From: Mesorhizobium sp.
GTDB lineage: Bacteria > Pseudomonadota > Alphaproteobacteria > Rhizobiales > Rhizobiaceae
DNA: 64,000 bases
Reading direction: 5' to 3'
Assembly (NCBI RefSeq): GCF_024509055.1
Contig: NZ_JANINM010000524.1
Span: forward strand, 1 to 64,000
Positions 1,401-59,504 of this stretch are shown piece by piece. Numbering within the stretch: position 1 is the first letter of the stretch; every line of letters starts with the position of its first letter. The position numbers were made by a program, and so were the translations under genes. The notes under the pieces are model-generated. The model did no database searches. It was not told the DNA's origin and saw only the letters and a list, made by a program, of their open reading frames with translations.

Positions 1401-1486
1401 GAAAGGGCCGATCTGCACGCGGTTTGGCCTGCGTTCGGAGAACTCGGGGCTGAGATGAGAGACGGCTTCAGCGCCAAGGGCGGAGT

Positions 1487-2515: not shown

Positions 2516-2549
2516 TGCGCTCACTTCCAACACGCCTGCGGGTAGGACT

Positions 2550-6580: not shown

Positions 6581-6590
6581 CCCCGTTACC

Positions 6591-21036: not shown

Positions 21037-21064
21037 GCATCATATCACTTATCACATATCATGC
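21037..21064. promoter_or_regulatory. FadR-type operator, copy 3 (autoregulatory position)
   Basis: GCATCATAT-CACTTATCAC-ATATCATGC: the outer arms pair at 8 of 9 positions, and the centre holds the shared half-site ATATCACTTATCA. The inner right half is degenerate compared with the other copies. It lies between the stop of the YdiJ-like gene and the GTG of the regulator and overlaps that stop codon. Confidence 0.6.
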
Positions 21065-28651: not shown

Positions 28652-28658
28652 CGCGGAT

Positions 28659-31650: not shown

Positions 31651-31686
31651 GCGAGTGCTCTGGTATCCTGGTGCAGCGTGGGCGCG

Positions 31687-33147
31687 TTACGGGCGACCAA
31701 TCAAATTGCTCGCGGAGATGGCGCGAACGTCGTCCACGACCATCTGAAACGATGCCTGACGGCCCTCGGTCGCGGCGCGTTCGGCGATCTTGTCTTTGTG
31801 GAACGTCACGATGTCTTCCGGGAGCGGAATGTCACCCTTGCTGAAGACCCGGATCGCGCCGTGGTTGTCGCGAACTGGCGTCATTCGTCCGGCGTTGACG
31901 CTGGCCGGCGCAAAGGGAATGTCCATGACGCCCGCTTCGAACGCCAGGACGGCGCCCCGCGCAACATCGCCTTGGCCGAGTTCGATGACCTTGCGCATCA
32001 CCGCATGCACCTCTCGCTCGATGACCGCTATTTCCTGGGTGATCTCGTCGGTCTCCAACGGCTTCTGATCGCCGATCATGTTGATCATCTGCGCCGTTGC
32101 CTGGAGCCCGGCGCGGTTGGCCTCCATGGTCGGCACGCCGGCGGCCTCGTGGGGTGTCTTCACAATGATCTTCGTCGCCCCCGCGAACTTCGCGGCTGCG
32201 GAGCCGAGCGCTATCACCGAATAGGCTTGGGCTTCGTTCTCGGGGAAGCCGCCCATCCACTGATGGAACACCGTCGAGAGCGCGTAATCCTCGTGGCCAA
32301 ATTCTGCGAAGTAATGCTTCGCGAGCCTGCGCAATGACCGGATAGCAGCGATGTCTTGCGCCAGGTTGCCTGCCTGGCCGTATCCCAACGTGATGCACTT
32401 GACGCCCTGTTCCAGCGCCAGAAGCCCCTCGATAAGGGCGACAGTGTGGGAGACAAAAGGGGGTACGAGCGTTCCAGTGAGGGGACCGAACGGCTCCCTG
32501 TTGATCCTGATGCCCTCCTCTTCGTAGAGGCCGACGAGACGGTCGCAATATTGCCAGTGCCGGATCGACCTATCCAACGGCACGCTCTTCGAGTACGGAA
32601 TGTTGTAAGAAATCCCGCCGCCCTCGAAGCTGGAGAATCCCGCGGCCAACGTGATCTCCGCCAACAGGCGAGCATCCGGAGTGCCATGACGAACCTGGAC
32701 TGGCTTCTCCAGGCTGTCGACCAACCGCTGGCAGCCGGGAACACCGTGGTTCACCGGAGGAAAGCCGTTCAAGAGAGAGGTCCCCGCGGCTCTGGACCGC
32801 TCGATCCCCTTCTCCGCCTCTTGGTACCGATTGTGCCTGGTATAGGCATCAACCGTTGTCGGAAGGACATCGCAAAAGGGAGAAAGATCCTGGAGAAGCT
32901 TTGTGTGCTCGCGCAGAAGGGCTACGCCAGCGCGCGGCTGCAAAAGTGTCTTGCCAGTCGCTTCGGCTCGCGCCAGCGCAACCGAAAACTTCTTCGCCTC
33001 CGTCATTTGTTGATGACGCTGGATGGCTTCGGCGAAATTCACTTCCTGGCCGGTGGGCCACGACCGCAGCACGCCGTACCTTTCCGATTCGTACGCGGAT
33101 CGGGGAAGCTTCTTGTTTTCGATCATACCGCCAATCGGGAGTGTCAT
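31687..33147 (-). CDS. glmE: Methylaspartate (glutamate) mutase epsilon subunit
   Basis: 486 aa, normal for GlmE (about 483). Substrate-barrel segments include LLNGFPPVNHGVPGCQRLVDSLEKPVQVRHGTPDARLLAEI, SFEGGGISYNIPYSKSVPL and REPFGPLTGTLVPPFVSHTVALIEGLLALEQGVKCITLGYGQ. With the B12-binding GlmS subunit it interconverts L-glutamate and (2S,3S)-3-methylaspartate. It lies 36 bp before mal and 30 bp after glmL. Confidence 0.95.
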   Translation of the reverse strand: MTLPIGGMIENKKLPRSAYESERYGVLRSWPTGQEVNFAEAIQRHQQMTEAKKFSVALARAEATGKTLLQPRAGVALLREHTKLLQDLSPFCDVLPTTVDAYTRHNRYQEAEKGIERSRAAGTSLLNGFPPVNHGVPGCQRLVDSLEKPVQVRHGTPDARLLAEITLAAGFSSFEGGGISYNIPYSKSVPLDRSIRHWQYCDRLVGLYEEEGIRINREPFGPLTGTLVPPFVSHTVALIEGLLALEQGVKCITLGYGQAGNLAQDIAAIRSLRRLAKHYFAEFGHEDYALSTVFHQWMGGFPENEAQAYSVIALGSAAAKFAGATKIIVKTPHEAAGVPTMEANRAGLQATAQMINMIGDQKPLETDEITQEIAVIEREVHAVMRKVIELGQGDVARGAVLAFEAGVMDIPFAPASVNAGRMTPVRDNHGAIRVFSKGDIPLPEDIVTFHKDKIAERAATEGRQASFQMVVDDVRAISASNLIGRP

Positions 33148-33177
33148 GGAACGAACCGTCGAAAGGGTTTGGGGGTT

Positions 33178-34542
33178 TCAGTTGTTCTCGACCAGGGCGC
33201 TAAGACCTGCCCGGACTGCTGCCATGGGGTGGGCGGCGGCCACGTTTGCCAGAAGCGGAAGAATGTATTCGGGGTCGCGGAGGTATCGGGCCCTTAGCGG
33301 AGCCAGAACGCGCTTCCCATATTCGTCAGCCGTTAGGGACGAAAGGCTGTTTTGCGGCCGGAAGTCGGCCGTCGCCGAGAGGTATCCCCCAGTTCCAATG
33401 ATCTGCGGAACATCGGTGAGGTCGCGGCCAACCTGAACGTTGACCAATCCTTCCACAGTGCAGACCTGGTGAGCACGACCGGAGTGACGCATCAGGGAAT
33501 GCGCAAGGTTTGCGCTAGCGAGCACTGTATCGAACTTCTGTTCATCGAGACTCCTGGCCAGCGTTTCCGGAGCCCTCGAAACCCTGTCAACATAGACAGA
33601 GAAGGCTGAATCCGGTCCGAGGCTTTCGGATGGGTCCAGTTTCCGCGCGGCCACTGCTGCCGAGCGGGCAGAGACGCGCATGCCTAAATCGCCCTCAACC
33701 GTCCGCTTCACCTTGGCCTCCGGCAGTCCGCGGCGCACCGTGCCCGCCTGATTTTTTTCCTCGTGTACCGAATAGACGTCGGTTGTGGCACCGCCCATGT
33801 CGACCATGACGAACTCGCCGAATTCCGGGGCGAGCTCGGCGATGTTCCGGCAGTATTCGAAAAGGGCGTAAGGCGTAGGCGAAGGTTCGCGACCTGTATG
33901 GGCGACGATCCTATCGAGGCCCTTTCCCTTGGTTATTCTCTGGAGAAACAACTCTCTGATCGCGGCACGGGCCGGCTCTGGATTGGGGTTATCCAACCCG
34001 GGCAGTATATTCTCGACGCAAACAAGGTCCTGCCCATCCAGAATGCGCTCAACGTCATCTCGAACGTCACGATTCCCTGCAAAGACAATGGTTGCGGCCA
34101 AGCCGGCATCGGCAAGCTTTCGGGCATTCTCCACCGGGTAATGCGCATTTCCTCCATCTGCTCCGCCCGCAAGCAGGATGATGTCGGAGTTGGAATTGCG
34201 AAGCGCTTCAATGTCTGCGGCGCTAAGCGAGTAAGCGAAGCTGTGCGTAATCTTCGCCCCGGCCGAATACGCCGTCAGCTTGGCCATCTCCGCGGTGAGG
34301 TCGGGTACAATGCCAATTGCGGCTATCGCCAGACCACCCTTGGCAGAGGAGGAATAGAAAAGCTCATCGTGCTCCCCATCCGCAGACAATGCGTCAAATA
34401 CAAAGTTGAAACCGCGGGAGAGGTCATCCACCGTAGTCGGATGGGCAGCGCGTTTGGCGACGCGCAACTCATTCGGGCTCGATAGCACAAAGGCGGCGCC
34501 CTTGGTCCACGTGGAGCCGATATCTACCGAGATGAGTCTCAT
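33178..34542 (-). CDS. glmL: Glutamate mutase MutL/GlmL protein
   Basis: 454 aa of the ASKHA fold: ISVDIGSTWTKGAAFVL, DIILLAGGADGGNAHYP, FVMVDMGGATTDVYSVHEE and IGTGGYLSA. MutL/GlmL is always found between the two mutase subunit genes and is thought to help assemble or reactivate the B12 enzyme. The ATG overlaps the last base of the glmS stop (TGATG), so translation is coupled. Confidence 0.93.
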   Translation of the reverse strand: MRLISVDIGSTWTKGAAFVLSSPNELRVAKRAAHPTTVDDLSRGFNFVFDALSADGEHDELFYSSSAKGGLAIAAIGIVPDLTAEMAKLTAYSAGAKITHSFAYSLSAADIEALRNSNSDIILLAGGADGGNAHYPVENARKLADAGLAATIVFAGNRDVRDDVERILDGQDLVCVENILPGLDNPNPEPARAAIRELFLQRITKGKGLDRIVAHTGREPSPTPYALFEYCRNIAELAPEFGEFVMVDMGGATTDVYSVHEEKNQAGTVRRGLPEAKVKRTVEGDLGMRVSARSAAVAARKLDPSESLGPDSAFSVYVDRVSRAPETLARSLDEQKFDTVLASANLAHSLMRHSGRAHQVCTVEGLVNVQVGRDLTDVPQIIGTGGYLSATADFRPQNSLSSLTADEYGKRVLAPLRARYLRDPEYILPLLANVAAAHPMAAVRAGLSALVENN

Positions 34543-35006
34543 CAGGCTTTGCAGAGCTCCGCGACCTGCTCCGGCCGCCCCTTAGCACGTTTCTGCACGA
34601 TCTCGCCCTTGAGCATGTCCACGAACATCTTCAGATCATCACCCGCTCTGAAGACGCGATCGAAGCCCATGGCCTTGAACTGCTTCTCGATCGAGTCGAA
34701 ATCGCGCTTACCAACAATGAGGTTGCCGCCGATATAAAGCAGGATGTCGCCGATGCCGCGCTCGATACAGCGCTCCCGCAAGCCCATGCAGTCGATTTCA
34801 CCATGTCCATAGATCGATGAGACGAGGATCGCATCGGCGCCAGTCTCAATGGCCGCGTCGATAAATTCGTCCTGGCTGACCATCACGCCAAGATTGACGA
34901 CGCTGACGCCTAGCTGCTCGATCACGTTCATCAGGATCTTGTTGCCCACTGCATGGCAGTCGGCACCGATTACACCGAGCACCACTTTGAATTCCGAAGT
35001 GACCAT
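34542..35006 (-). CDS. glmS: Methylaspartate (glutamate) mutase sigma subunit, B12-binding
   Basis: 154 aa, a single cobalamin-binding domain. The motif [16 protein letters not shown] gives DxHxxG, with the cobalt-ligand histidine at about residue 18; [14 protein letters not shown] and [12 protein letters not shown] supply the remaining cobalamin contacts. It is the first gene of the operon. A promoter TTGACT-16 bp-TATGAG (minus strand) lies just upstream, with a palindrome behind it. Confidence 0.95.
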
Positions 35007-37287: not shown

Positions 37288-38112
37288 TCATTGAATAACG
37301 CGCGGCTCTCCCGTATTCGCGCCGGACGGATCGAGACCGTACTTCTTCAGGATCTCTCCGATCTTGCCGTTCGCATGAAGGGCATTGATGTCGTCCTTGA
37401 GAGCGTCGGTCAGCTTCGGATTGTCCTTCGTGTGCGGGAAGTTTGACTGCGCGGGCTCCTTGCTGGCGGCGACGCTGTCATCCGGCTCGATGATCTCGAC
37501 TTTCATGCCGCCGTAGGCGCCATTTTTTTGTGCCTCCTTACCGACGACATAACTCTCAAATCCCGCGTCTATACGCCCTGCTGCCAGATCCTGCGCCATG
37601 TTGACGCTGTTGGGATAGGTGATTGCAGAGTCGCCAAAGAGCTTGGCGATGTCGTTGTACCAGAGGTAACCTTGGATGTTGCCCACCTTCTTGCCAGAGA
37701 GCTGCGAAACCTTGGTGGCGCCTTCCTTCGAGATGACGCCCATCTGGTCGAGGTAAAGCGGCGCGGAAAGGCTGAGCACTTTCGCGCGCGCCGCCGTTCT
37801 GTACCAGTTGCCAACCGTCAAGTCGGCCTTTCCGGAGAGAACGGCCTGAATCGCGGCGGCAGGATCGAGCGAGATGACCTCGACCTTCAGGCATTCCATT
37901 CCAACGATTTCGCGAACGATGTCCGGGTCGATCCCGTTGAACTCGCCGTTCTTCACGCTGCTGAACGGCGGAAGTTCGTAAGCTGCAACCGTCAGGGTGC
38001 CGGACGTGACGGTCGGGAATTGGTGCGCCGGCTTGCAGTCTGCTGCGGCAGCCGCGGTGAGCGCCGAAAAAGATACGATCACGGTCGCCGTGACAAAGCT
38101 TAGGATCTTCAT
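37288..38112 (-). CDS. Polar amino acid ABC transporter substrate-binding protein
   Basis: 274 aa, signal peptide MKILSFVTATVIVSFSALTAAAAA. The mature part has LTVAAYELPPFSSVKNGEFNGIDPDIVREI and the family site ADLTVGNWYRTAARAKVLSLSAPLYLDQMGV; the C-terminal DDINALHANGKIGEILKKYGLDP is typical of family 3 binding proteins. It is the last gene of an ATPase-permease-permease-SBP operon transcribed from 40.6 kb. Confidence 0.92.
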   Translation of the reverse strand: MKILSFVTATVIVSFSALTAAAAADCKPAHQFPTVTSGTLTVAAYELPPFSSVKNGEFNGIDPDIVREIVGMECLKVEVISLDPAAAIQAVLSGKADLTVGNWYRTAARAKVLSLSAPLYLDQMGVISKEGATKVSQLSGKKVGNIQGYLWYNDIAKLFGDSAITYPNSVNMAQDLAAGRIDAGFESYVVGKEAQKNGAYGGMKVEIIEPDDSVAASKEPAQSNFPHTKDNPKLTDALKDDINALHANGKIGEILKKYGLDPSGANTGEPRVIQ

Positions 38113-38214
38113 GTTTCCCTCTGGCTCATGTTTGACATTGGGTTCGATGTTACGGTTCAGTTGCGGTCAGTTGTCATAAAGTCGAACGGAAGCACCTCCA
38201 TCTGTGTGGTTGGC

Positions 38215-38874
38215 TTATCGGGTGTGATGCGAAAGACGATCTTCGAGTTTTCCTACCGCGATCGTCGCAGGCACGCAGACAGCCGCATAGATAACCCCCG
38301 CCAGGATCAAAGCTGGCAGGTATAGGAAAGTGGAGGAGCCTATAGAGTAGGCACGGCTGATCAATTCTGGCAGCGTTATTGCAAAGCAGAGGGAAGTCGA
38401 CTGCAGGATAGTGATGGAGAAGCCGAGCAACGCAGGCAGGGCTACCATGAGCCCCTGGGGAAGGATGATGTAGCGCAGCGCATCGATCTGGCTAAGACCG
38501 ATAGCATCCGCAGCCTCCTTTTGCCCCGCCGCGACCGACTCCAGGCCGCCCCGAATGATCTCGCTGGTGTAGGCGCCGGTGCAGCAGGCCAGAGCGAGGA
38601 CTGCCGAAGCGTACGAAGTAAGCGTTAGCCCGGCCGACGGCAGCCCATAGTAGGCGAATTGCAGGAGCACGAGCGCGGGCGTGCCCCGGCTAAGCTCGAC
38701 GAAAGCCAGGGAGGAAAGCTTCACCGGGCGAGACTTCGCCTGCACGCCGAGCGCCAGGAGAAGGCCGAGAGGAATTCCAAGCAGAAGGCTCAGGCCCGCC
38801 ACCTTGAGGCTTAGGGCGAAGCCTCCCAAAAGGGTCGGCAGCCATTCCCGCCAAAGGTCAAGGTACTCAATCAT
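38215..38874 (-). CDS. Polar amino acid ABC transporter permease (HisM/GlnP family)
   Basis: 219 aa with about five membrane segments. The coupling motif reads GLESVAAGQKEAADAIGLSQIDALRYIILPQGL, the EAA loop of His/Glu/Gln-type permeases. It overlaps the other permease by 4 bp and is separated from the binding-protein gene by about 100 bp. Confidence 0.93.
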   Translation of the reverse strand: MIEYLDLWREWLPTLLGGFALSLKVAGLSLLLGIPLGLLLALGVQAKSRPVKLSSLAFVELSRGTPALVLLQFAYYGLPSAGLTLTSYASAVLALACCTGAYTSEIIRGGLESVAAGQKEAADAIGLSQIDALRYIILPQGLMVALPALLGFSITILQSTSLCFAITLPELISRAYSIGSSTFLYLPALILAGVIYAAVCVPATIAVGKLEDRLSHHTR

Positions 38875-39512
38875 CTGGCCACCCGAGCGCGCATTTTTTT
38901 GTCGACTGTCCTGGACACCCAGGCGATGGGCAGGCTCATCGCGATGTAGATGAGCGCGACGACCGCATAGACATCCAGGCCTCGGAAGGTTTGCTGCGAA
39001 ATGTGATAGGCTGCGTAGGCAAGCTCAGGCACGCCGATGGCTGACGCGACGGCGCTGTCTTTGAGCAGCCCGATCGCGTAGGTAGCTGCGGCCGGAAGCG
39101 ATATTCGCGCCAACTGCGGTGCGATAATCTCGCTCAGCTGGTTCCATCGCGGCATTCCCAGCGCGGTGCTCGCCTCCCATTGACCGTGATGGATTGCGGC
39201 AAGCGAGCCTCGATAGATCTCAGCCATGTTGACGGCGGTAATGAGCCCGAGCCCGATGCATGCCGCGGCGAACGCATTCAACTGAATGACCCCCGATCCA
39301 AGTCCGAAATAGATCAGGAAGAGCCAGACCAGCGGGGGGATCGACCGTACGATCAGGATGAACGCGCCAACCAAGGGCTTTAGCAGAGGGATTTTCGTCA
39401 AGCGCAACGCGCAAATCGGAATTCCGAGCGCCGCCCCAAGAGAGAAAGCCAATGCGGTCAGCGCCAGCGTATACGGAACAGCCAGCAGGATGGTTACCGC
39501 CATGTCGCCCAT
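38871..39512 (-). CDS. Polar amino acid ABC transporter permease (HisQ/GlnP family)
   Basis: 213 aa. The N-terminus (MAVTILLAVPYTLALTALAFSLGAALGI) is the usual start of this family, and the EAA loop is GSLAAIHHGQWEASTALGMPRWNQLSEIIAPQLA. It lies one base after the ATPase gene and overlaps the next permease by 4 bp, so the two form a heterodimeric channel. Confidence 0.93.
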   Translation of the reverse strand: MGDMAVTILLAVPYTLALTALAFSLGAALGIPICALRLTKIPLLKPLVGAFILIVRSIPPLVWLFLIYFGLGSGVIQLNAFAAACIGLGLITAVNMAEIYRGSLAAIHHGQWEASTALGMPRWNQLSEIIAPQLARISLPAAATYAIGLLKDSAVASAIGVPELAYAAYHISQQTFRGLDVYAVVALIYIAMSLPIAWVSRTVDKKMRARVAR

Positions 39513-39513
39513 C

Positions 39514-40314
39514 TCAGCGGTCCCTCACCGCTCTCAGGAAGCGCTGGGTCCTCTCCGCGCGCGGTGCAGTCATCACCTGCTTGCTTGGTCCCTCTTCTAT
39601 GATCATGCCGTCAGCCATGACGACCACCCGGTTGGAAACATCCTCGGCGAAGTGCATTTCGTGGGTTACGACGATCATCGTCATTCCGTTTTCGGCCAAC
39701 TCGCGCATGACCGTGAGCACCTCGACCCCCAGCTCCGGATCAAGGGCGGAGGTCGGCTCGTCGAAGAGCATCGCCTCAGGATCCAGCGCGAGCGCTCGCG
39801 CAATGGCTATGCGTTGCTGCTGGCCGCCGGAACATCGGGACGGATATTGGGAGCCCTTGTCCGCAAGACCAACGCGCGAGAGCAGCTGCATTGAGCGCTG
39901 GTCGGCTTCTTCCCTGCTTCTGCCAAGAACGCGTTCCTGGGCGAGACTTACGTTTCGCAGCACGGAAAGGTGCGGAAAAAGGTTGAAGGACTGGAAGACC
40001 ATGCCAACTTTTCGGCGCAGCTTCTGGAGGTCTCGCACGGCGGGATGGCCTCCCGGGGCAATGGTCGCATCGCCGACCGAGACAGTCCCTCCGGTGTGAA
40101 ATTCGAGTTGGTTTACACAGCGAAGAAGCGTGCTCTTGCCGGATCCGCTGGGGCCGATCATGGCGACGACTTCGCCTTTTGCGACGCTCAGGTTCACCCC
40201 TTTGAGCACTTCGATCGGCCCATAGGTCTTCCGGATCCCCTCCAGATGAATCAGCGGTGTCTCCAGCGCCGTGCCCTGGCCGTTGGGGGGATCGAGAGTG
40301 TCTGTAGCTTTCAT
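39514..40314 (-). CDS. Polar amino acid ABC transporter ATP-binding protein
   Basis: 266 aa. Walker [10 protein letters not shown], Walker [15 protein letters not shown] and H-loop VVTHEM are normal. The signature motif is CSGGQQQR, where LSGGQQQR is more common. The first ~20 residues are an extra hydrophilic tail. It heads the transporter operon; the promoter with FadR-type operator copy 6 is about 250 bp upstream, leaving a long leader. Confidence 0.93.
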   Translation of the reverse strand: MKATDTLDPPNGQGTALETPLIHLEGIRKTYGPIEVLKGVNLSVAKGEVVAMIGPSGSGKSTLLRCVNQLEFHTGGTVSVGDATIAPGGHPAVRDLQKLRRKVGMVFQSFNLFPHLSVLRNVSLAQERVLGRSREEADQRSMQLLSRVGLADKGSQYPSRCSGGQQQRIAIARALALDPEAMLFDEPTSALDPELGVEVLTVMRELAENGMTMIVVTHEMHFAEDVSNRVVVMADGMIIEEGPSKQVMTAPRAERTQRFLRAVRDR

Positions 40315-41108: not shown

Positions 41109-42866
41109 TTAAGAAGCCACGGCTTCGGGTATCGCATTGATTTTGCGAAGAGCGTCCAACATCTCGTCCAGATTGCCACAAGGGAGGCAGCCTAGCTTGG
41201 CAACATCCTCGGTTACATCGACCGGGAGGCCCGAGTTGGTATCCGTCGGCACTTCATTCAGACGTCCTCCGATGAGAATTGGCAAATCAATGTTTCGATC
41301 GGCCATGGCGGCTTTCACAGCTTGCGCGTAGCGAAAGGCAACTCCGTTATAGGTGGAAATCGCGATAGCATCGGCACCAGTCTCCACGGCGTGCGCCACA
41401 AGCACCTCAGGGTCCACCGCGATACCCGCATCGCTAACAGCGACACCGAGTCCGACAAGGGCTTGCGTCACCAGATATTTGCCGTGCTCATGAACGTCCG
41501 TAGTCCCGACGCAGACCGTCAACTTTCTGTCGACAGGGGTTTGCTTCGAAATCCAGGCGGCGGCCTTCTCGTCTAATTCCCGCGCCCATTCAGCAGGGAC
41601 AAGCGGTGAACGGCCCTGCTGAGTGTCTCGCCCGGGACCAAAGAGTGCTTCCAAACGCTTTGGCCCCATTCGACGGATGGCCAGCATAAGCGCGGCGGGA
41701 TCGTTGGTATCAACTCCACGATCGGCGAGGCCATCCAGCACGGCCTTCGCAAAACGATTTCCCCCTTCGACTAGCGTGTCGGCCATTGCCTCAACCTTGG
41801 ACCAGTCAAAGATTGGATCGTAAAACGGTGCATGCTCCGCAAGGCGATGAGCGAAGGTCTGCGCGTCGATAATCTCGTCAACATCCGGTATGCGCTGGTT
41901 TTCAGTCACTGGCACCGGGTTGATTGCGTGGCCCGAGGGCCAACGCCTCACATCGAGAATGTCTGTCAGCAGATAGCTCGCGAGGCTCGCGTAGTTGCCT
42001 GCGGACGCCGACTGGTAAGAGACCGTGTTTCCGAAGATCATGGTTCCGGGTGTACTGCTTACCCGCGCGAGTGCAGCATGAAACGCTGATCGCGATAGCG
42101 GATCACTAAAATGATGGCCATAGCAATGGCCCAACGTCCCTCCGATTAGCCCCTCAACAATATGCTTTTCGATCAGTACCATTCCGAGCGCGCATGCCAT
42201 GTCCAGGAACAACCCCGCGAACCCGTCGTCAAGGTTGGAGTGGACCAAGACTTGCGACTTCTGGGCAGCGATTAGCCCAAGCGCGACCACAGTTGATCGC
42301 GTGGTCGCGATGTCATCATCCCAGTACGGAAGCCTGAAGGTAAAATACTGCCCGAGATTTCCAATCGCGGTTGTGCCGGCTGCTATGGCTGCACAAATGT
42401 TTTCGACCGCACCCGGCAACCCAAGCATGAAGTCCCCGAAATGTGCTGCGGCCGGCGCTGCATTGGTGATGCGAGCAAAGTCTTCTGGTCCGTTCAACAC
42501 GATGCCTGTCCCTCGCATTGCCTTTTCTCGGACAGCTATGGGGTAGCCCATTGACCAGTCGAGCGTGATCCCAAATCGATCAACCGTTACCCCCGCCTCC
42601 TGACACCCTTCATACACTTCGGCGATAGCTTCAATTGTTCGATCCACGCTGCGAAAGCCTATGTGCGCGTGCTGCATGACCCGCCGTTCAACCGCGGCCC
42701 TCCGTTTCCATTCGACCTCGCTGGCCACCTGCATTTCGGTCAAGAAACGGCATTGGCCGAGCTGCCAAGCCGATGCCAAGGTCCTACCTTCTGCTACCAG
42801 GTCGACGCCTGGTTCCATACGAGGCTCAACTAGCTGCATTTCGCGAGTGGTCATTTCAATTCCCAA
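41109..42866 (-). CDS. Single-chain cobalamin-dependent mutase-like protein, substrate unknown
   Basis: 585 aa. The C-terminal ~135 residues are a B12-binding domain: CVGTTDVHEHGKYL (DxHxxG at residues 457-462), IAISTYNG where S-x-L would be expected, and PILIGGRLNE (GG). The first ~430 residues look like a TIM-barrel mutase domain related to GlmE (GTTAIGNLGQYFTFRLPYWDDD, VLVHSNLDDGFAGLFLDMACALGMVLIEKHIVEGLIGGTLGHCYGHHFSD). Glutamate mutase keeps the two parts as separate proteins; here they are fused in the order barrel then B12 domain. No MutL-like partner lies next to it. It follows a FadR-type gene and a small ORF. I do not recognise a characterised orthologue; an amino acid or C5/C6 acid mutase is the best guess. 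Confidence 0.75.
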   Translation of the reverse strand: MGIEMTTREMQLVEPRMEPGVDLVAEGRTLASAWQLGQCRFLTEMQVASEVEWKRRAAVERRVMQHAHIGFRSVDRTIEAIAEVYEGCQEAGVTVDRFGITLDWSMGYPIAVREKAMRGTGIVLNGPEDFARITNAAPAAAHFGDFMLGLPGAVENICAAIAAGTTAIGNLGQYFTFRLPYWDDDIATTRSTVVALGLIAAQKSQVLVHSNLDDGFAGLFLDMACALGMVLIEKHIVEGLIGGTLGHCYGHHFSDPLSRSAFHAALARVSSTPGTMIFGNTVSYQSASAGNYASLASYLLTDILDVRRWPSGHAINPVPVTENQRIPDVDEIIDAQTFAHRLAEHAPFYDPIFDWSKVEAMADTLVEGGNRFAKAVLDGLADRGVDTNDPAALMLAIRRMGPKRLEALFGPGRDTQQGRSPLVPAEWARELDEKAAAWISKQTPVDRKLTVCVGTTDVHEHGKYLVTQALVGLGVAVSDAGIAVDPEVLVAHAVETGADAIAISTYNGVAFRYAQAVKAAMADRNIDLPILIGGRLNEVPTDTNSGLPVDVTEDVAKLGCLPCGNLDEMLDALRKINAIPEAVAS

Positions 42867-43015: not shown

Positions 43016-43783
43016 CTACCTCACTATTGGCCGGATCAAATCCACTGCGGCCACTTGCTTGGTGTTTCCAACTTCTGCGCGTGAGGCCAGCGCCAAGGCG
43101 CGCACGCGTTCAAAACTGTCGTGGAGATGCCTCCGCATAGAGTCACGCGCCACGCGCCCGTTTCGTTTCTCGATGGCCCGCACGATGCCTTCATGCTCGG
43201 CGTGGATGCGCGCGTAATAGCTATCCTTCACTTCCGCCGCCACCAGGTGACCGAGTTGGACACGCGACCCGATTATGGGATGCAGGTAGCTCAAGAAGCC
43301 ATGGATGAAGCGATTGCGGGCAGCATTGGCAATTGCGAGATGAAAATCATGGTCGTAGTGCAGCGGCACCTTGGCAGGATCCTCCCTTAGGCCGTCGGCC
43401 TGCTCCATAATGGCACGAATGCCGGCTGCTTCATCGTCGGACCGGCGTTCCGCGCAGAGGCCCGCAGCCTCCACCTCAACGCCCAGCCGCAGTTCGAGAA
43501 GGGCGAGGGTTTGCGGCAGCTCCCCGAGGGCTGCCTCCGGTATCGAGAAGACGTATGGAGCCGGCGCCTCGCTGACGAACATTCCGAGCCCTTGTCGCGG
43601 GATCACCAAGCCCTCCGATCTCAGCCGCGCGATCGCCTCACGGACAACGGTGCGGCTGACGTCGTACTCGGCGCACAGCTCGGCCTCGGTCGGCAACTGC
43701 GTGCCCGGGCGAAGCTCGCCCGAGAGGATATCTTCCGACAGGCTCTCAGCGACCACAGTGGACAGGGGTATGCGCTTCGTCAT
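43016..43783 (-). CDS. FadR/GntR-family transcriptional regulator (second FadR-type)
   Basis: 255 aa. GntR HTH (STVVAESLSEDILSGELRPGTQLPTEAELCAEYDVSRTVVREAIARLRSEGLVIPRQGLGMFV) plus FCD domain with DHDFHLAIANAARNRF, AEHEGIVRAI and RRHLHDSFERV as likely metal and ligand residues. It resembles the regulator at 20.3 kb and may be a paralogue with its own or a shared site. It is followed by the small ORF and the B12 mutase gene, which are its likely targets. Confidence 0.9.
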   Translation of the reverse strand: MTKRIPLSTVVAESLSEDILSGELRPGTQLPTEAELCAEYDVSRTVVREAIARLRSEGLVIPRQGLGMFVSEAPAPYVFSIPEAALGELPQTLALLELRLGVEVEAAGLCAERRSDDEAAGIRAIMEQADGLREDPAKVPLHYDHDFHLAIANAARNRFIHGFLSYLHPIIGSRVQLGHLVAAEVKDSYYARIHAEHEGIVRAIEKRNGRVARDSMRRHLHDSFERVRALALASRAEVGNTKQVAAVDLIRPIVR

Positions 43784-43889: not shown

Positions 43890-44648
43890 CTAACGAATGT
43901 AGCTACCGCCATTGACATCGAGCGTCGCACCGTTCAGCGAGTTCTGCGACGGGCGCAGCACGAAGGCGACGAGTTCGGCGACCTCTGCCGGAGAGGCCAT
44001 TTCGCCGATTGGAATGTCAGCAACCGCAGCCTGCTTGCCATGCGTGGCGATGAAATCCTCGGCCATGTCGGTGCGCACCCAGCCGGGCGCGATCGCGACG
44101 GCCGTGATGCCATCCGCCCCGAAGGAGCGAGCGATGGATTTCGTTAGGTTGACGAGGGCCGCTTTCGTCGCGCCATAGGGCATGGCATCTGCCGCGTAGC
44201 CCCGCTGGCCGGCACGGCTTGCCATGTTGACGATGCGGCCGCCGCCATTTGCCTTGAAGTGCCGGATGGCCTCCTTTGCCAGATCGGCGGCGGCGAAGAA
44301 ATTGATCTGGAACTCCTTTTGCCAGGCCGATTTCCAATCCTCGGGCGAAGCCTCGATGGATATCTCCGTCCGGATGCCCGCGTTGTTGATGAGACCGTGA
44401 ACGCGGCCCGCCGCCTCGACGGCCTTTCGCCACAGTTCGAACGGCCCATCGGCGCTGGAAAGGTCAGCCTGCACGATCAAGCCACGGCCGCCGATCCGCG
44501 ACATCAAAACCTCGGCGGCCGCGCTGTCGCGGCCGTAATGAATGATCGGACGCGCTCCCTCCGCGGCGAGGCGTTCGACGATGGCCGCGCCGATGCCGCC
44601 AGACGCCCCGGTGACGAGAACAGTCTGGCCCTCAAGCGACTTGTCCAT
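43890..44648 (-). CDS. Short-chain dehydrogenase/reductase (FabG-like)
   Basis: 252 aa. VLVTGASGGIGAAIVERLAAEGA, INNAGIRTEIS, VNMASRAGQRGYAADAMPYGATKAALVNLTKS (catalytic Ser and YxxxK) and GATLDVNGGSYIR at the end. It is the last intact gene of the hydroxyproline-type operon, 10 bp after the proline-racemase-family gene. It may oxidise the ring hydroxyl or a side product; no specific substrate can be named. Confidence 0.9.
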   Translation of the reverse strand: MDKSLEGQTVLVTGASGGIGAAIVERLAAEGARPIIHYGRDSAAAEVLMSRIGGRGLIVQADLSSADGPFELWRKAVEAAGRVHGLINNAGIRTEISIEASPEDWKSAWQKEFQINFFAAADLAKEAIRHFKANGGGRIVNMASRAGQRGYAADAMPYGATKAALVNLTKSIARSFGADGITAVAIAPGWVRTDMAEDFIATHGKQAAVADIPIGEMASPAEVAELVAFVLRPSQNSLNGATLDVNGGSYIR

Positions 44649-44658
44649 GGTTCCTCTC

Positions 44659-45693
44659 CTACTTCAAAAGATCTACCTGCGGCCCCCAGGTATCCGAGAG
44701 CGCAAAGCCGACGCGGAACGGATCGTCATCTGAAATACGCAGCTCGGATCGCCCGTAGACGTAACCGCGGCCCGTGATGCGCGGCAGCACGGCCTTGCGG
44801 CCGCCGACTTCCGTTTCACCTATGGCTTCGGCCATGAACTCGCCGCCTATGATGGAACGCGAGGTGCGGACATCGCCAACTTTCACGAGACCGCGCGCAT
44901 AGAGTACCGCGAGATTGGCAGAACTCCCGGTGCCGCAAGGCGAGCGGTCGACCCGGCCTGGCGGCAGCACGGTACAGGTGCGCACCGCGCCGTCGGGCTC
45001 TCGGTCGCGGAACATGACATAGGCGATTTCGTCGACCCCCGGGAGGGTGGGGTGCTTCACGGGTATCTGTTCCGAAAGCAGGCGCTTCAGTTCGATACCT
45101 GCTTCGGCGAGCGCCCGCGAATTGGACGGCCCAATGGAGAGACCTATTTGATCGACATCGACCAACGCGTAGTACACACCGCCGAAGGCAACATCTACCT
45201 TGATTTTCCCCCAGTGCGGCGTGTCGACGGCTTGGTCGAGGTATTCCGCGAAGCATGGCACGTTATCCAGGCTGACCGACAGGCACCGCCCTTCCTCGCA
45301 ACGGGCTCGCGCCAGGATCAGGCCGGCAGGCGTATCTAGCCTCACCAAAGTTTCAGGTTCCCGCATGGCTACGCGCCCGCTTTCGAGGAGCGCGGTGACG
45401 ACGCAGATGCTGTTGCTGCCGGACATTGGGTGGGCCCGGTCGGCCTGCAGCACGATAAATCCAGCATCTGCATCGAGACGTGACGGAGCGACCAGGAGGT
45501 TCACCGTCATGGCGACGTTGGCGCGCGGCTCGAAGGTTACGAAACGACGGAGACTGTCGTCCACCGTGTTGATGTGGTTCATCTTGTCCAGCATGGTTGC
45601 GCCAGGAATCTCTGGCGCTCCGCCCACTAGCACATGGCCCAGCTCCCCTTGGCAGTGGACAAGCAGCAAATCGAGCGACCGTTCGAAGCGCAT
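44659..45693 (-). CDS. Proline racemase family enzyme, probable hydroxyproline 2-epimerase (Ser/Cys type)
   Basis: 344 aa of the proline racemase superfamily. The second catalytic residue is a cysteine in VDRSPCGTGSSANLAVLYARG. At the first site the usual MCGH is replaced by PMSGSNSICVVTALLESG, so the other acid/base residue is serine. Ser/Cys members have been linked to hydroxyproline epimerisation, while Cys/Thr members are trans-3-hydroxyproline dehydratases. The neighbours (D-amino acid dehydrogenase, DHDPS-family deaminase, aldehyde dehydrogenase) complete the trans-4-hydroxy-L-proline route, favouring 4-hydroxyproline 2-epimerase. A 3-hydroxyproline enzyme remains possible. Confidence 0.85.
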   Translation of the reverse strand: MRFERSLDLLLVHCQGELGHVLVGGAPEIPGATMLDKMNHINTVDDSLRRFVTFEPRANVAMTVNLLVAPSRLDADAGFIVLQADRAHPMSGSNSICVVTALLESGRVAMREPETLVRLDTPAGLILARARCEEGRCLSVSLDNVPCFAEYLDQAVDTPHWGKIKVDVAFGGVYYALVDVDQIGLSIGPSNSRALAEAGIELKRLLSEQIPVKHPTLPGVDEIAYVMFRDREPDGAVRTCTVLPPGRVDRSPCGTGSSANLAVLYARGLVKVGDVRTSRSIIGGEFMAEAIGETEVGGRKAVLPRITGRGYVYGRSELRISDDDPFRVGFALSDTWGPQVDLLK

Positions 45694-45704
45694 CGCATTA
45701 GGTC

Positions 45705-47180
45705 CTACTTGATGTACCAGCCCCAGGGGGCTTCACTCACGAGCTTGGTGATCTGCTTCGTTTCGAGATAGTTGTCGAAGCCCCACCGACCGAGCTCGCG
45801 CCCGATGCCGGATTCCTTGTAACCGCCCCAAGGCGCCTCGGTGAAGGTCGGCTGCGAGCAATTGATCCAGACGATACCAGCGCGAAAGGCCCTGGCAACG
45901 CGCTCGGCACGCACGCCGTCTTTTGACATGACCGCCGCGGCGAGGCCAAACCGGGAATCGTTGGCGAGCTCGATGGCTTCCTCTTCCGTCTTGAACGGAC
46001 GCACGCAGACAACGGGGCCGAAGATCTCCTCGACCCATGCGGCACTGTCGAGCGGCACGTCGGTCAGGACCGTCGGTTGCAAGTAGTAGCCCTTGTCAAA
46101 CCCATCGGGCCGTGCGCCGCCGCAGGCAACCGTTGCGCCCGCTGCCTTTGCCGCTTCGATCGCATCGACGACCTGTTCGTGCTGGCGCCTTGAGACGAGC
46201 GGACCAAGAAGGACGCCGTCGTCCAGGCCATTGCCAATGCGGATACGGTTCGTCTCCTTGATTAGGCGGGCCAGCAGCGCGTCATAGATGCCTTCCTGGA
46301 CCAGGACGCGCGAGGTGGCCGAACAAACTTGGCCCTGGTTCCAGAAGATGCCGAACATGATCCATTCGACCGCCTGCTCGATATCGCTGTCATCGAAGAC
46401 TACGAATGGCGACTTGCCACCGAGTTCCAAGCTCACGCGCTTTATATCCCGGGCGGCAGCCGCCATGATTTTGGACCCGATCGGACCCGATCCCGTAAAG
46501 GCTAGCTTGTCGACGCCCTTATGGTCGATGATGGCTTGGCCCGCGACAGACCCAGAGCCAGTGACGACGTTCAAGACGCCGGGAGGCAAGCCGGCCTCGT
46601 CGGCGATCGCAGCAAGCTCAAGCGCGGTCAGCGAGGTCACTTCCGCAGGCTTGAGCACGACGGTACACCCAGCCGCAAGCGCGGGGGCGACCTTCCAGGC
46701 AGCCATCAGAAGCGGATAATTCCACGGAATGATGGCAGCAGCAACGCCGATAGGCTCGCGCACCGCCTTGGAGATGAACCGCTCGTCAGCGAGGGCGATC
46801 GGTTCTTCCGGATCGTTGTCCAACTGCTCGGCAAGGCCGGCGTAGAAATCGAAACATCCGGCGGCATCGGTGATATCCCATTCGGCCTCCGGAAACGGCT
46901 TGCCGTTGTCGATGACTTCCAATCGGGCAATCTCTTTCACGCGCGCTCGAATGCCATTCGCGATGTCTCGAAGATAGGTTGCACGGTCGGCCCCGGAGAG
47001 CTTGGGCCAAACGCCTTTGTCGAACGCTCGCCTTGCTGCGTCGACTGCGATATCGACATCTTCAGCCGTTGCCGCGCTGATCGTGTGAATCACTTCTTCC
47101 GTGGCAGGGTTGATCACCTTGGAACTGCCGCCATTGATCGGCTTTACCCACTGTCCATCGATGTAAAGATCGCTTCGCAT
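45705..47180 (-). CDS. Aldehyde dehydrogenase of the hydroxyproline-type operon
   Basis: 491 aa. Catalytic glutamate in VSLELGGKSPFVVFDDSD and cysteine in FWNQGQVCSATSRVLV; the N-terminus MRSDLYIDGQWVKPINGGSSKVINPATEEVI and C-terminus PWGGYKESGIGRELGRWGFDNYLETKQIT resemble betaine/aminoaldehyde dehydrogenases. In the hydroxyproline pathway the aldehyde would be 2-oxoglutarate semialdehyde. It lies between the epimerase-like and D-amino acid dehydrogenase genes with gaps of 11 and 33 bp. Betaine aldehyde or an aminoaldehyde cannot be excluded. Confidence 0.88.
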   Translation of the reverse strand: MRSDLYIDGQWVKPINGGSSKVINPATEEVIHTISAATAEDVDIAVDAARRAFDKGVWPKLSGADRATYLRDIANGIRARVKEIARLEVIDNGKPFPEAEWDITDAAGCFDFYAGLAEQLDNDPEEPIALADERFISKAVREPIGVAAAIIPWNYPLLMAAWKVAPALAAGCTVVLKPAEVTSLTALELAAIADEAGLPPGVLNVVTGSGSVAGQAIIDHKGVDKLAFTGSGPIGSKIMAAAARDIKRVSLELGGKSPFVVFDDSDIEQAVEWIMFGIFWNQGQVCSATSRVLVQEGIYDALLARLIKETNRIRIGNGLDDGVLLGPLVSRRQHEQVVDAIEAAKAAGATVACGGARPDGFDKGYYLQPTVLTDVPLDSAAWVEEIFGPVVCVRPFKTEEEAIELANDSRFGLAAAVMSKDGVRAERVARAFRAGIVWINCSQPTFTEAPWGGYKESGIGRELGRWGFDNYLETKQITKLVSEAPWGWYIK

Positions 47181-47213
47181 CTTCGCTCCCGTAAGTGTAG
47201 CAGCCGACGGACC

Positions 47214-48452
47214 CTAGAACCTGTCGACGCGATAGGCATCCATCGCCAAGGGCGGGGTAGCTCCGGTGATAAGATCGGCCATCAGGCGGCCTGCTGTTGC
47301 AGCAAGGGTCAGGCCGAGATGTCCGTGGCCAGTCGCGTAATAGACGTTTCGGCATTTCACGGAACGTCCCATGATCGGGACGGTATCCGGAAGGGCCGGA
47401 CGGTGACCCATCCACTCGCTTGTCTGCTCGACCTCGAGGCCCGGCAATGCCTCCTTGGCTCGTTTCACCAAGACTTTCGCGCGGCGATAGTCCGGCGGCG
47501 CGTCCAGGCCCGCCATTTCCACAGTTCCGCCAACGCGGATGCCACCGGCCGTTGGCGTCACCATGAAGGCTCGGGCTGGCCAGATGATCGAATGGCGCAT
47601 GGATATCCCAGGAGCCATGATTTGCGTATGGTACCCACGCTCCGTCTCGAGAGGTATCGGCTCTCTGAGCATCGCCGATAGGCGGGCAGTGTAGGCGCCG
47701 GCGGCGAGCACCGTTCTATCGGCCTCGAAGCGTCGCCCGTCCTTCAACCGGAGCGCTGCGACACCCCCGTCGCCGTGCTCGAATCCTATGACATCGCCTT
47801 GCACGAAAGTGCCGCCAAGCCTTTGGAAGGCCTCGGCCAGCGCAGTCACAAGCTTGTACGGGTCCGATATCGAACGGTTGTCGGGCAGAAGGACCGCTTT
47901 CGCGATCTTGGTGGAAAGAGCTGGCTCGAGATCGCGAATGGCATTGCCGCCGAGCACTTCGTGACGAAAGCCAAAGTGGCCGAGGGCCTTAAGATGATCG
48001 CGGTCGGCGCTGAACTCTGCCTCGTCAGCATAAAGGCTAAGGCAACCTTCAGAGCTCAGCATGTGCTGCAACCCAGTATCGGCGAGCAGCGCCGCCAAGT
48101 CCTCGTGCACGCGGCCGCAGAGCAAGGCGCCCGCGGCTTCCAGTTCACGGAGTTTCGATGGTCGGCTAGCCGCGAGGAAGCGCAGGAACCAAGGTATCAG
48201 CTTAGGCATGTAGGCCGGGCGCACGCGCACGGGACCCTCTGGGTCAAGCAGCCATTTCGGCATCTGGGCCAAGATGCCCGGCCGCGATGCCGGCGTGAAC
48301 TCCGACACCGCAATGCTCGCCATGTTGCCGTAGGAAGCACCCCTGCCAGGCTGATCGCGATCGATCAGCACGACGGTTTCACCACGCCGCTGCAGCATGT
48401 ATGCGATGGTTGTGCCGATAATGCCGGCTCCGACGACGAGAGTAGGCGACAC
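47214..48452 (-). CDS. D-amino acid dehydrogenase (DadA-like), probable D-hydroxyproline dehydrogenase
   Basis: 412 aa, GTG start. FAD-binding LVVGAGIIGTTIAYMLQRRGETVVLIDR, GRGASYGNMASIAVSE and the C-terminal GHGHLGLTLAATAGRLMADLI are typical of DadA relatives. In the known route cis-4-hydroxy-D-proline is oxidised to 1-pyrroline-4-hydroxy-2-carboxylate. It sits between the DHDPS-family and aldehyde dehydrogenase genes, which fits. Electrons probably go to the quinone pool. Confidence 0.88.
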   Translation of the reverse strand: MSPTLVVGAGIIGTTIAYMLQRRGETVVLIDRDQPGRGASYGNMASIAVSEFTPASRPGILAQMPKWLLDPEGPVRVRPAYMPKLIPWFLRFLAASRPSKLRELEAAGALLCGRVHEDLAALLADTGLQHMLSSEGCLSLYADEAEFSADRDHLKALGHFGFRHEVLGGNAIRDLEPALSTKIAKAVLLPDNRSISDPYKLVTALAEAFQRLGGTFVQGDVIGFEHGDGGVAALRLKDGRRFEADRTVLAAGAYTARLSAMLREPIPLETERGYHTQIMAPGISMRHSIIWPARAFMVTPTAGGIRVGGTVEMAGLDAPPDYRRAKVLVKRAKEALPGLEVEQTSEWMGHRPALPDTVPIMGRSVKCRNVYYATGHGHLGLTLAATAGRLMADLITGATPPLAMDAYRVDRF

Positions 48453-48516
48453 GCAAGCTCCCCATGAGCAATATCAGGCCCGGCACGCCGCTCCTCGCAG
48501 CGACCGAAGCGAATGC

Positions 48517-49395
48517 TTACCAGTTCAGGATCGGCTCCATGGCCGCACGGAAGTCGTCCTTCTCCTGATCGGTCAATTCGCCCAGCGGAGCGCGGCAGTT
48601 GCCGACAGGCGTGCCCTGCAGTTCACAGCCATACTTGATCTTCTGCACGAACTTGCCGCTCTCAAGGATGTTCATGGCCCGGTACAGCACTGTCATCATT
48701 TCGCGGGCCTTTTCGAGGTCGCCGGAACGAAACGCGCGGTCAAGGTCACAGCAGGGCTTCGCCATGCAGTTGGCCGGTCCGCAAATCCAGGCGTCGGCGC
48801 CCCAGAACATGAAATCGAGCGCAATGTCGTCCGAGCCGGAGACCAGGTCGATGCGGCCTTTGTAGCGGGCGTGGATGTCGACCGCGCGCTGGAGGACGCC
48901 CGAGCTTTCCTTGATGCCGATAACGCGCGGATCATCGGCGAGCGCGTCCATCAGTTCGAAGGAGATCTCGATGCCGTCCTTCGGAGGGTAGTTGTAGAGG
49001 ACCAGATTGACGCCAGTGGCATCCAGAACAGCTCGATAGTGCGCGAGGAGTTCCTCCTGTGTCGGGCGGGTATAGAACGGCGTTGCCAGCAGCACTGTGT
49101 CGTAGCCGATCTCCTTAGCCCTCTGCGTGTTCTCGATAACCTCCCTGGTGGCTGGCGCGTTGGTGCCGGCTACCAGAATCTCGCCTTCCTTGGCGAAGGC
49201 CTTGACGAACTTGAGCACCTCGTCGCGCTCATCATTCGACATGGAAAAGTATTCTCCGGTCGAGCCCATAGGCACCCAGCCTGTCACCCCGGCGGCACGC
49301 AGATTGAGCATGTGCTTTTCGAACGCCTTGAAATCGACCCTGTTGTTGGCGCCGAACGGCGTCACCAGCGCTGGCATCACACCTGAAAGTTTCAT
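48517..49395 (-). CDS. DHDPS/NAL-family lyase, probable 1-pyrroline-4-hydroxy-2-carboxylate deaminase
   Basis: 292 aa from ATG MKLSGVMPALVTPFG, preceded by AGGAGAGG; the ORF-track start is 16 codons too early. Family residues are visible: MGSTGEYFSMSNDER, the tyrosine in LVLYNYPPKDGIEIS and the Schiff-base lysine in VIGIKESSGVLQRAV. Related enzymes in hydroxyproline operons deaminate the pyrroline to 2-oxoglutarate semialdehyde. It is the first gene of the operon running to 43.9 kb and lies 60 bp behind tandem operators. Confidence 0.88.
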   Translation of the reverse strand: MKLSGVMPALVTPFGANNRVDFKAFEKHMLNLRAAGVTGWVPMGSTGEYFSMSNDERDEVLKFVKAFAKEGEILVAGTNAPATREVIENTQRAKEIGYDTVLLATPFYTRPTQEELLAHYRAVLDATGVNLVLYNYPPKDGIEISFELMDALADDPRVIGIKESSGVLQRAVDIHARYKGRIDLVSGSDDIALDFMFWGADAWICGPANCMAKPCCDLDRAFRSGDLEKAREMMTVLYRAMNILESGKFVQKIKYGCELQGTPVGNCRAPLGELTDQEKDDFRAAMEPILNW

Positions 49396-57998: not shown

Positions 57999-58715
57999 GT
58001 GAACGACGAACTGGAAGCGAAGCGCGCTCGGGGTACAAGCTGGAAGAGTATTTATGAGACGCTCCGAGGCGAGATCCTCGCGATGACGCTTCAGCCTGGG
58101 CAATTGCTGGATGAGACCACTCTTGCGGAGCGTTTTGACATGTCGCGTTCGCCGGTTCGAGAGGCGTTGATCAGGTTAGCCGGCGAGGAACTGGTTGTCG
58201 CGCTTTCCAACCGCAGCACGATTGTCGCCCCCATCGAGGTGGGAACGTTTCCCAAGTATGTCGAGGCTCTGGACATCGCCCAGCGCATGAACACTCGGTT
58301 GGCGGCCGCGTTGCGGACTGACGAAGATCTCAAGATCATTGCTCGCCGCCAGAAGGAGTTTGAATCGGCCGTTCGCACGGGTGTGCATCTGCGGATGTCA
58401 GAAGCGAACAAGCAGTTCCACGTAGCCGTGGCCAAGGCAGGGAAAAATCCCTATCTAACCAGCTTCTATGAGAGACTGCTAAATCAAGGACAGCGTATGC
58501 TGCATCTCCATTTCGAGTACCTTGAAAGGACGCACGACGGATATCTGCTGACCGACGAGCATAACCTCATGCTGGAAGCCATTCGGGACAAGGACGTCGA
58601 GCGTGCCGACGAACTGGCCCATGCGCATACTCGGCAATTCCAGGCGAACTTCATCAACTTCCTGAAAGAGAACTATACGACCGACGTTTCGCTGTCCCTA
58701 TCTGCCGCTGAGTGA
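57999..58715 (+). CDS. GntR-family regulator with FCD domain (likely regulator of the hydroxyproline/aap genes)
   Basis: 238 aa, GTG start. HTH: WKSIYETLRGEILAMTLQPGQLLDETTLAERFDMSRSPVREALIRLAGEELV. FCD domain: RMSEANKQFHVAVAKAGKNPYLTSFYERLLNQGQRMLHLHF, with TDEHNLMLEAI and AHAHTRQFQANF. It lies next to tandem TGTCG-N9-CGACA operators that recur at 49.5 kb, so it most likely controls itself, aapJQM and the hydroxyproline operon. The ligand may be a pyrroline carboxylate or hydroxyproline; that is inference. Confidence 0.9.
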   Translation: MNDELEAKRARGTSWKSIYETLRGEILAMTLQPGQLLDETTLAERFDMSRSPVREALIRLAGEELVVALSNRSTIVAPIEVGTFPKYVEALDIAQRMNTRLAAALRTDEDLKIIARRQKEFESAVRTGVHLRMSEANKQFHVAVAKAGKNPYLTSFYERLLNQGQRMLHLHFEYLERTHDGYLLTDEHNLMLEAIRDKDVERADELAHAHTRQFQANFINFLKENYTTDVSLSLSAAE

Positions 58716-58718
58716 ACG

Positions 58719-59504
58719 ATGATTTGGGGTTTCGTCGGCACTGGCACCATCACCGAAGCGATCGTGACGGGAATGATGTCTTCAGGCCTTGACGTATCCA
58801 GGGTCGTCGTCTCTCCGCGGAACGCTGCAGTCGCCGCACGGTTGGCCGCGCGCTATCCGAAAGTGCAAATCGCCAAGGATAACCAGCAAGTCGTCGACAT
58901 TGCAGATGTCGTGATCCTAGCCGTCCGGCCGCAAATTGCGAGGGACGCAATTTCCGATTTGGATATCCCGAAGGGCAAGAGGATTGTGAGCCTGATCGCC
59001 GGCTCAAATCATCGCCTGCTCCAAGAATGGACGGGTCTCGACGAACGAAACATCACTCGTGCCATTCCCCTGCCGTTTGTTGCAAACCGAACGGGAGTGA
59101 CCGCAATTTTTCCAGCCGATCCAATCGCGGAAACGCTATTCAGCGCATTGGGCGATGCGGTCGCTTGCAGGTCAGAGGAGGAGTACGATCTTATTGGCTC
59201 CGCCAGCTGCCTCATGGGGACCTATTTCGGCCTCCTTGAACGCGCGCAAGATTGGCTTGTCGGCAAAGGTCTCGAACCAGGAATTGCCAGAAGCTATCTT
59301 CTTCCTCTCTTTGGCAGCCTGGCAGATGCAGCAATTGCGTCGCCCGCCACCAGCTTCATGGAACTGAGACGCGAGTTTTCGACTCCAGGCGGATTGAATG
59401 AACAGGTGTTCCGGGATTTCGACGAGACCGGGGCTACAAAGGTCCTCCACCACGCCCTCGATCGCGTGCTCTCCCGCATCAGAGCAGAACCCTTTCAGGG
59501 ATAG
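58719..59504 (+). CDS. Pyrroline-5-carboxylate reductase-like protein (ProC family)
   Basis: 261 aa. N-terminal nucleotide loop IWGFVGTGTITEAIVTGMMSSG replaces the usual GFIGxGNMxxA; VILAVRPQ, RAIPLPFVANRTGVTAIFP and the C-terminal REFSTPGGLNEQVFRDFDETGA keep the ProC layout. It starts 3 bp after the GntR gene. Beside a hydroxyproline-type operon it may reduce a pyrroline carboxylate to proline or a related imino acid instead of serving proline synthesis. Confidence 0.85.
   Translation: MIWGFVGTGTITEAIVTGMMSSGLDVSRVVVSPRNAAVAARLAARYPKVQIAKDNQQVVDIADVVILAVRPQIARDAISDLDIPKGKRIVSLIAGSNHRLLQEWTGLDERNITRAIPLPFVANRTGVTAIFPADPIAETLFSALGDAVACRSEEEYDLIGSASCLMGTYFGLLERAQDWLVGKGLEPGIARSYLLPLFGSLADAAIASPATSFMELRREFSTPGGLNEQVFRDFDETGATKVLHHALDRVLSRIRAEPFQG

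Follow-up and report, generated by a model that had tools for sequence, protein, structure and literature searches.

A family of single-chain B12 mutase-like proteins encoded beside imino-acid enzymes in Alphaproteobacteria

Few adenosylcobalamin (AdoCbl) mutase reactions are known, most of them from anaerobes. The window analysed here, a 64,000-nucleotide stretch of a Mesorhizobium sp. contig, carries the glutamate mutase genes GlmS, MutL and GlmE at 31.7-35.0 kb, as the initial annotation had stated, and a second gene, at 41109-42866, for a protein in which a barrel and a B12-binding domain lie on one chain. What reaction does this fused protein catalyse, and which of the known B12 enzymes does it resemble?

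The gene and its family

The longer form of the open reading frame (41109-42866, minus strand, 585 codons) begins with TTG and encodes 585 aa; an in-frame ATG at 42854, with GGGA ahead of it, is the likelier start. The features of the gene and its product are as follows.

41109..42854, minus strand: single-chain B12 mutase-like coding sequence, ATG start, 581 aa, member of a conserved family
41811..42833, minus strand: N-terminal helices and (beta/alpha)8 barrel, residues 12-352 (AlphaFold2; Foldseek with the barrel only), with predicted strands at residues 64-69, 97-100, 140-143, 167-169, 207-211, 244-249, about 276 and about 314 (AlphaFold2)
41541..41810, minus strand: helical linker between barrel and B12 domain, residues 353-442 (AlphaFold2 secondary structure)
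41136..41531, minus strand: C-terminal Rossmann-type B12-binding domain, residues 446-577 (Pfam PF02310)
41481..41498, minus strand: DVHEHG motif, residues 457-462, with predicted cobalt-ligating His459, conserved in 45 relatives
41349..41357, minus strand: STY motif, residues 504-506, where S-x-L is usual (alignment of 45 relatives)
41265..41270, minus strand: GG motif, residues 533-534, invariant in 45 relatives

Scanning 85,462 species genomes returned 207 stretches that encode a relative; 80 of these were fetched, and 45 relatives, sharing 48-80% identity with the window protein along the whole chain, were aligned. Nearly all the relatives found are alphaproteobacterial (Rhizobiaceae, Mesorhizobium, Brucellaceae, Xanthobacteraceae, Rhodobacterales, Acetobacteraceae and others), and a single one carries the label of a gammaproteobacterial MAG. 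The distribution is patchy, with the barrel present in 4 of 399 Pseudomonadota genomes and the family absent from the sampled sister species of the window's own genus. In a search for distant homologues, none of 399 Pseudomonadota genomes held the barrel without the B12 domain.

All positions conserved in at least 97% of the family are unchanged in the window protein, and comparison of its gene with that of the nearest relative gave a dN of 0.14 with saturated dS. Judged from these sequence comparisons, the gene is under strong purifying selection; conservation and dN/dS rule out a decaying or chance reading frame at 41109-42866, and the gene is intact. Its GC3 of 0.61 lies below the 0.71-0.80 of most neighbours, which would fit a recent transfer. 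On plasmid p1 of Rhizobium lentis BLR27, a copy cut to the C-terminal 40% lies beside IS66 genes (L007 10001-10735).

The C-terminal domain had been described at the outset by its DVHEHG and GG motifs and by STY in place of S-x-L, and all of these are present and essentially invariant among the 45 relatives. D457, V458, H459, E460, G462, S504, Y506, N507, G508, G533 and G534 do not vary, and T505 is kept in 44 of 45; the GG pair and the serine of S-x-L are thus retained throughout, with the leucine replaced by an invariant tyrosine. PF02310 matched every one of the 45 proteins. On the window protein the Pfam match covers residues 455-536, extended to about 450-538 when Pfam and NCBIfam are taken together, and it is the B12 domain alone that is recognised: barrel and linker drew no match from either collection, and a PDB sequence search with the protein gave matches confined to B12 domains. 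The close match to a characterised mutase that the initial annotation had allowed for was accordingly not found in Pfam, NCBIfam or the PDB beyond this domain. Likewise, the non-subscription literature searched yielded neither a described enzyme of this kind nor biochemistry for any member. The "novel B12 protein family" reported in 2009 (PMC2667541) is a different one, having its B12 region at the N-terminus and occurring in Firmicutes, Chloroflexi and Thermotogae.

Predicted fold and candidate active site

AlphaFold2, supplied with the 45 relatives after plasmid-record rows were left out, produced a full-chain model with a pLDDT of 92.1 and a pTM of 0.91. In this model N-terminal helices are followed by a (beta/alpha)8 barrel, predicted with high confidence, a helical linker and a Rossmann domain. 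When the full model was compared with the PDB using Foldseek, methylmalonyl-CoA mutases ranked first (best E-value 4.6e-14), and ornithine 4,5-aminomutase, GlmE and lysine 5,6-aminomutase were also matched. With the barrel alone, the four best matches were GlmE (1cb7, 6h9e) and lysine 5,6-aminomutase (1xrs, 8t0v), with TM-scores of 0.53-0.62 on query length (0.62 for 1xrs) and an E-value of 6e-7 for GlmE. Sequence identity in these structural matches is only 9-14%, and 9-13% for the barrel-only ones. Structure prediction and comparison, which had been proposed as a check, therefore place the whole chain with the B12 radical mutases.

Methylmalonyl-CoA mutase, the best whole-chain match, shares the order of barrel, linker and B12 domain in a single chain. 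Unlike it, the protein studied here has no CoA-type gene context, and methylmalonyl-CoA mutase is not among the best matches of the barrel by itself; its barrel family found no Pfam match in 45 members.

The barrel had been called GlmE-like, and this holds for the fold only, because no similarity to GlmE was detected at the sequence or profile level. Neither the Pfam MutE/GlmE model (PF06368) nor TIGR01503 matched the protein, while the Pfam model gives 674 bits for the GlmE of the window. A comparison by hhalign with an alignment of GlmE returned a probability of 0.6%, a weak negative given that this alignment has three rows only. Taken with the missing Pfam and NCBIfam matches, this value leaves sequence kinship to GlmE unsupported. 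What the protein has in common with GlmE/GlmS is the barrel fold, a B12 domain of the base-off/His-on type and similar B12 motifs. It differs in that the barrels have no detectable sequence relation and in being fused, barrel first, in contrast to the separate E and S subunits plus MutL of glutamate mutase. Nor is it co-encoded with MutL: none of nine other genomes carrying the family has a MutL above cut-off. The window does encode a MutL, as had been stated at the outset, but the link holds for GlmES only, and a role for MutL with the fused protein is unsupported. The protein is not a glutamate mutase, and the view that it is a single-chain protein of mutase type distinct from the window's GlmES/MutL is supported by the fold.

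H66, G70, R72, D103, M106, H142, D145, N170, Q173 and Y174 are invariant in the 45 relatives, as are H209, N211, D213, D214, C248, H251, T281, Y284, N316, P319, E322 and R325, and in the AlphaFold2 model these barrel residues cluster where the strands end on their C-terminal side, or directly behind. With polar residues kept invariant at such places, a substrate site is more to be expected than the mere B12 carrier that had been raised as a possibility. Its place after the last strand makes E322 a possible counterpart of E330 in glutamate mutase and E338 in ornithine aminomutase, the glutamate that holds the adenosine ribose, an equivalence drawn without coordinates. In our own strand-by-strand reading, the arginines expected to bind glutamate were not evident in the barrel.

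Genes around the mutase-like gene

In the window, the gene belongs to a minus-strand run that comprises a DapA-type lyase, a D-amino-acid dehydrogenase, an aldehyde dehydrogenase, a proline-racemase-family protein, a short-chain dehydrogenase (SDR), a FadR-type regulator, the mutase-like gene itself and an ABC transporter. The neighbouring features, including two genes farther away on the plus strand, are listed below.

37288..40314, minus strand: polar amino acid-type ABC transporter genes, downstream of the mutase-like gene (ATPase matches amino-acid ABC ATPases)
43016..43783, minus strand: FadR-type GntR regulator with FCD domain, upstream of the mutase-like gene (Pfam)
43890..44648, minus strand: short-chain dehydrogenase (Pfam)
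44659..45693, minus strand: proline-racemase superfamily protein with Ser-Cys dyad, likely 4-hydroxyproline 2-epimerase (nearest structure 4q2h; dyad class PMC4113996)
45705..47180, minus strand: aldehyde dehydrogenase, probable alpha-ketoglutarate-semialdehyde dehydrogenase (72% identical to Phyllobacterium copy)
47214..48452, minus strand: D-amino-acid dehydrogenase family flavoprotein (67% identical to Phyllobacterium copy)
48517..49395, minus strand: DapA-family lyase, probable Pyr4H2C deaminase (77% identical to Phyllobacterium copy)
57999..58712, plus strand: GntR regulator (82% identical to the Phyllobacterium zundukense GntR upstream of P5CR and B12 genes)
58719..59501, plus strand: pyrroline-5-carboxylate-reductase (P5CR)-family protein, PRK06476 (51% identical to one adjoining a Phyllobacterium B12 gene)

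The FadR-type regulator that had been proposed is thus present, as an FCD-domain GntR gene. A complete 4-hydroxyproline degradation set (44659-49395, minus strand) adjoins the region. Proteins with the Ser-Cys dyad and such neighbours have been assigned as 4-hydroxyproline 2-epimerases (PMC4113996), and the window set at 44.7-49.4 kb includes a racemase-family protein of this type; unlike the window locus with its adjoining mutase-like gene, the published pathway requires no B12 enzyme (PMC4113996). In Phyllobacterium zundukense the same hydroxyproline set (67-77% identical) surrounds a B12 gene of a remote branch, with a GntR and a P5CR-like gene beside it. The P5CR-like gene of the window lies 16 kb from the mutase-like gene, on the opposite strand, and its product is of another P5CR subfamily.

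Three other regions of the window's minus strand were noted. A near-complete methylaspartate route (27158-35006), in an aerobic-type alphaproteobacterial genome, comprises a class I fumarase/mesaconase-like protein, a DUF4387 protein, an AtuA-family protein, methylaspartate ammonia-lyase, GlmE, MutL and GlmS. At 5063-9035 an MTTB-family methyltransferase adjoins a dimethylglycine/sarcosine-dehydrogenase-like protein, and at 21059-24112 there is a homologue of the D-2-hydroxyglutarate dehydrogenase YdiJ, above the NCBIfam cut-off.

Neighbours were compared across 84 loci by codon-scored gene calling and clustering. The commonest is a P5CR-like gene, found by profile search in 54 of the 84. It directly adjoins the mutase-like gene in 16 loci, in four of them on the same strand with gaps of 0-23 nt, and in one genome (G215) the two genes abut as a unit without other pathway genes, the smallest form of the locus; Tistlia consotensis (L134) likewise has a two-gene unit. 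Because the nine genomes checked hold only one to four P5CR-family genes each, the association is far above chance; it is to an imine reductase that the family is most closely tied. An aspartate-dehydrogenase (AspDH)-like gene, whose product keeps the GNxH segment of aspartate dehydrogenase, is near 48 loci, and no such partner was found in the window genome. A cupin (47 loci), an alpha/beta hydrolase (42) and a NIPSNAP protein (41) also recur, as do branched-chain-type amino-acid ABC transporters and two SDR families, and ABC transporters of amino-acid or peptide type are common around the gene.

Other neighbours mark particular groups of loci. About 31 of the 84 have a KstD-like flavoprotein and a 2-oxoacid-dehydrogenase-type E1/E2 set; a different group, of 14-17, combines two proline-racemase-family proteins with a D-amino-acid dehydrogenase and a protein of the DapA family. 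Genes of the hydroxyproline type accompany the family at three places in the tree that lie apart from one another, namely in the Ancylobacter/Brucella group, in Phyllobacterium and in the window. In seven loci of full length, all three types of partner are missing. These differences between lineages suggest that the substrate may vary too, or that it is a shared intermediate.

Minor features of these loci include a conserved protein of about 290 aa near the mutase-like gene in 34 of them (cluster 9, e.g. L061 16257-17123), for which the copy scanned, that of L099, had no Pfam or NCBIfam match. At another locus (L149 10123-11756, genome G472) the mutase-like gene has as neighbours an Lrp/AsnC regulator and a PLP-dependent gene of the deaminase family, similar to an ACC deaminase pair. 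MTTB-family genes are found 2-9 kb from the mutase-like gene in four of the 84 loci.

Proposed reaction and alternative readings

The proteins very probably form a new family of single-chain AdoCbl mutases. Its substrate is probably an amino or imino acid. The reading we favour as a whole, which is likely to hold, is a new AdoCbl radical mutase family with a GlmE/aminomutase-type barrel and a B12 domain on one chain, acting on a small amino- or imino-acid substrate. Points against it are that the structural resemblance is one of fold only and that STY stands in the place of S-x-L. Since the genes usually lie beside enzymes that form imines of amino acids or reduce them, the reaction is probably a new amino-acid rearrangement. 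A different rearrangement, of a C5/C6 amino-acid-type substrate, had been suggested at the outset; the P5CR-like and AspDH-like neighbours and the adjoining 4-hydroxyproline operon speak for such a compound without singling out the exact substrate.

We infer the use of AdoCbl, radical chemistry, the substrate class and the order of steps as follows. B12 would be bound base-off, with His459 as the lower ligand. Entry of the substrate into the barrel would cause the Rossmann domain to close over it and the Co-C bond to split; the 5'-deoxyadenosyl radical would then abstract a hydrogen, a group would shift to the neighbouring carbon and the hydrogen would be given back, a cycle like that of the known mutases. 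The substrate might resemble proline, hydroxyproline or glutamate semialdehyde, and the adjoining step, before or after the mutase, would probably fall to an imine reductase or dehydrogenase that uses NAD(P), P5CR-like and in many genomes also AspDH-like. More tentatively, the enzyme could rearrange, independently of PLP, the carbon skeleton of a cyclic imino acid or of its open amino-aldehyde form, a new class of AdoCbl mutase reaction coupled to the P5CR-like enzyme in an undescribed aerobic catabolic pathway; possible substrates on this proposal are of the pyrroline-carboxylate, hydroxyproline or glutamate-semialdehyde type.

A family of more than 200 members in aerobic, partly plant-associated Alphaproteobacteria, whose barrel is unassigned and which has a reductase as recurrent partner, points to a catabolic step that depends on B12 and has yet to be described. 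As some genomes contain two-gene units of B12 mutase and P5CR, the question is directly testable with two purified proteins.

The 2-methyleneglutarate mutase (Mgm) of Eubacterium barkeri is likewise one chain, about 600 aa long, and its B12 domain is C-terminal. The layout of the window protein is therefore not without precedent, and the earlier statement that no characterised enzyme has it was too strong. A natural fusion of glutamate mutase parts was also seen, in genome G215 (L139, minus-strand frame 1480-4110), where one chain holds a GlmS-like B12 domain (GGDSHSVG) followed by GlmE; the genome also has the mutase-like family and lacks a MutL above cut-off. That the family consists of Mgm relatives, carbon-skeleton mutases acting on a nitrogen-free dicarboxylic acid, would agree with the common layout and with the absence of a conserved PLP lysine from the B12 domain, but it is unlikely, as the neighbours are amino- and imino-acid enzymes and amino-acid transporters and as Mgm was found only in E. 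barkeri in a 2009 survey (PMC2667541), whereas the present family is alphaproteobacterial. Compared by description only, the two are single chains of similar size in different organisms and with different pathway neighbours.

An aminomutase of the OraE/KamD type would move an amino group, and the AspDH-like enzyme would be the dehydrogenase that acts next, as in ornithine and lysine fermentation. KamDE/OraE and the family, about 9-12% identical in sequence, share the barrel fold, which by itself is close to that of lysine 5,6-aminomutase, as well as an amino-acid dehydrogenase partner and, in OraE, a C-terminal B12 domain; the AspDH-like partner is frequent, and its role is of the kind expected of a diamino-acid dehydrogenase. 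It is a Rossmann-domain lysine that binds PLP in the known aminomutases (PMC3958899), and this lysine has no counterpart here: residues 445-585 contain no lysine that is invariant in the 45 relatives, K463 being A or R in 13 of them. The lack of a conserved lysine in the B12 domain means that the PLP-linked lysine of aminomutases is missing, and this reading is improbable.

Compared with the mutase reading, it is very improbable that the protein is a B12-dependent methyltransferase fused to a corrinoid domain, in the manner of CmuA or of the folate/cobalamin half of MetH: although the B12 domain also matches MetH, the linker has several helices and MTTB-family genes occur near the four loci mentioned above, a methyltransferase with a helical cap is unsupported by Pfam, in which the cap (B12-binding_2, PF02607; searched in 45 members up to an E-value of 1), methyltransferase barrel and URO-D models are unmatched in all members, by NCBIfam, whose MetH and MtgC matches start beyond their cap regions, and by superposition, in which cap-plus-cobalamin fragments fit the model poorly (TM-score on target length 0.38 for 1bmt and 0.50 for 4jgi) while mutase B12 subunits superpose well (0.76-0.81), and the best matches of the barrel alone are mutases.
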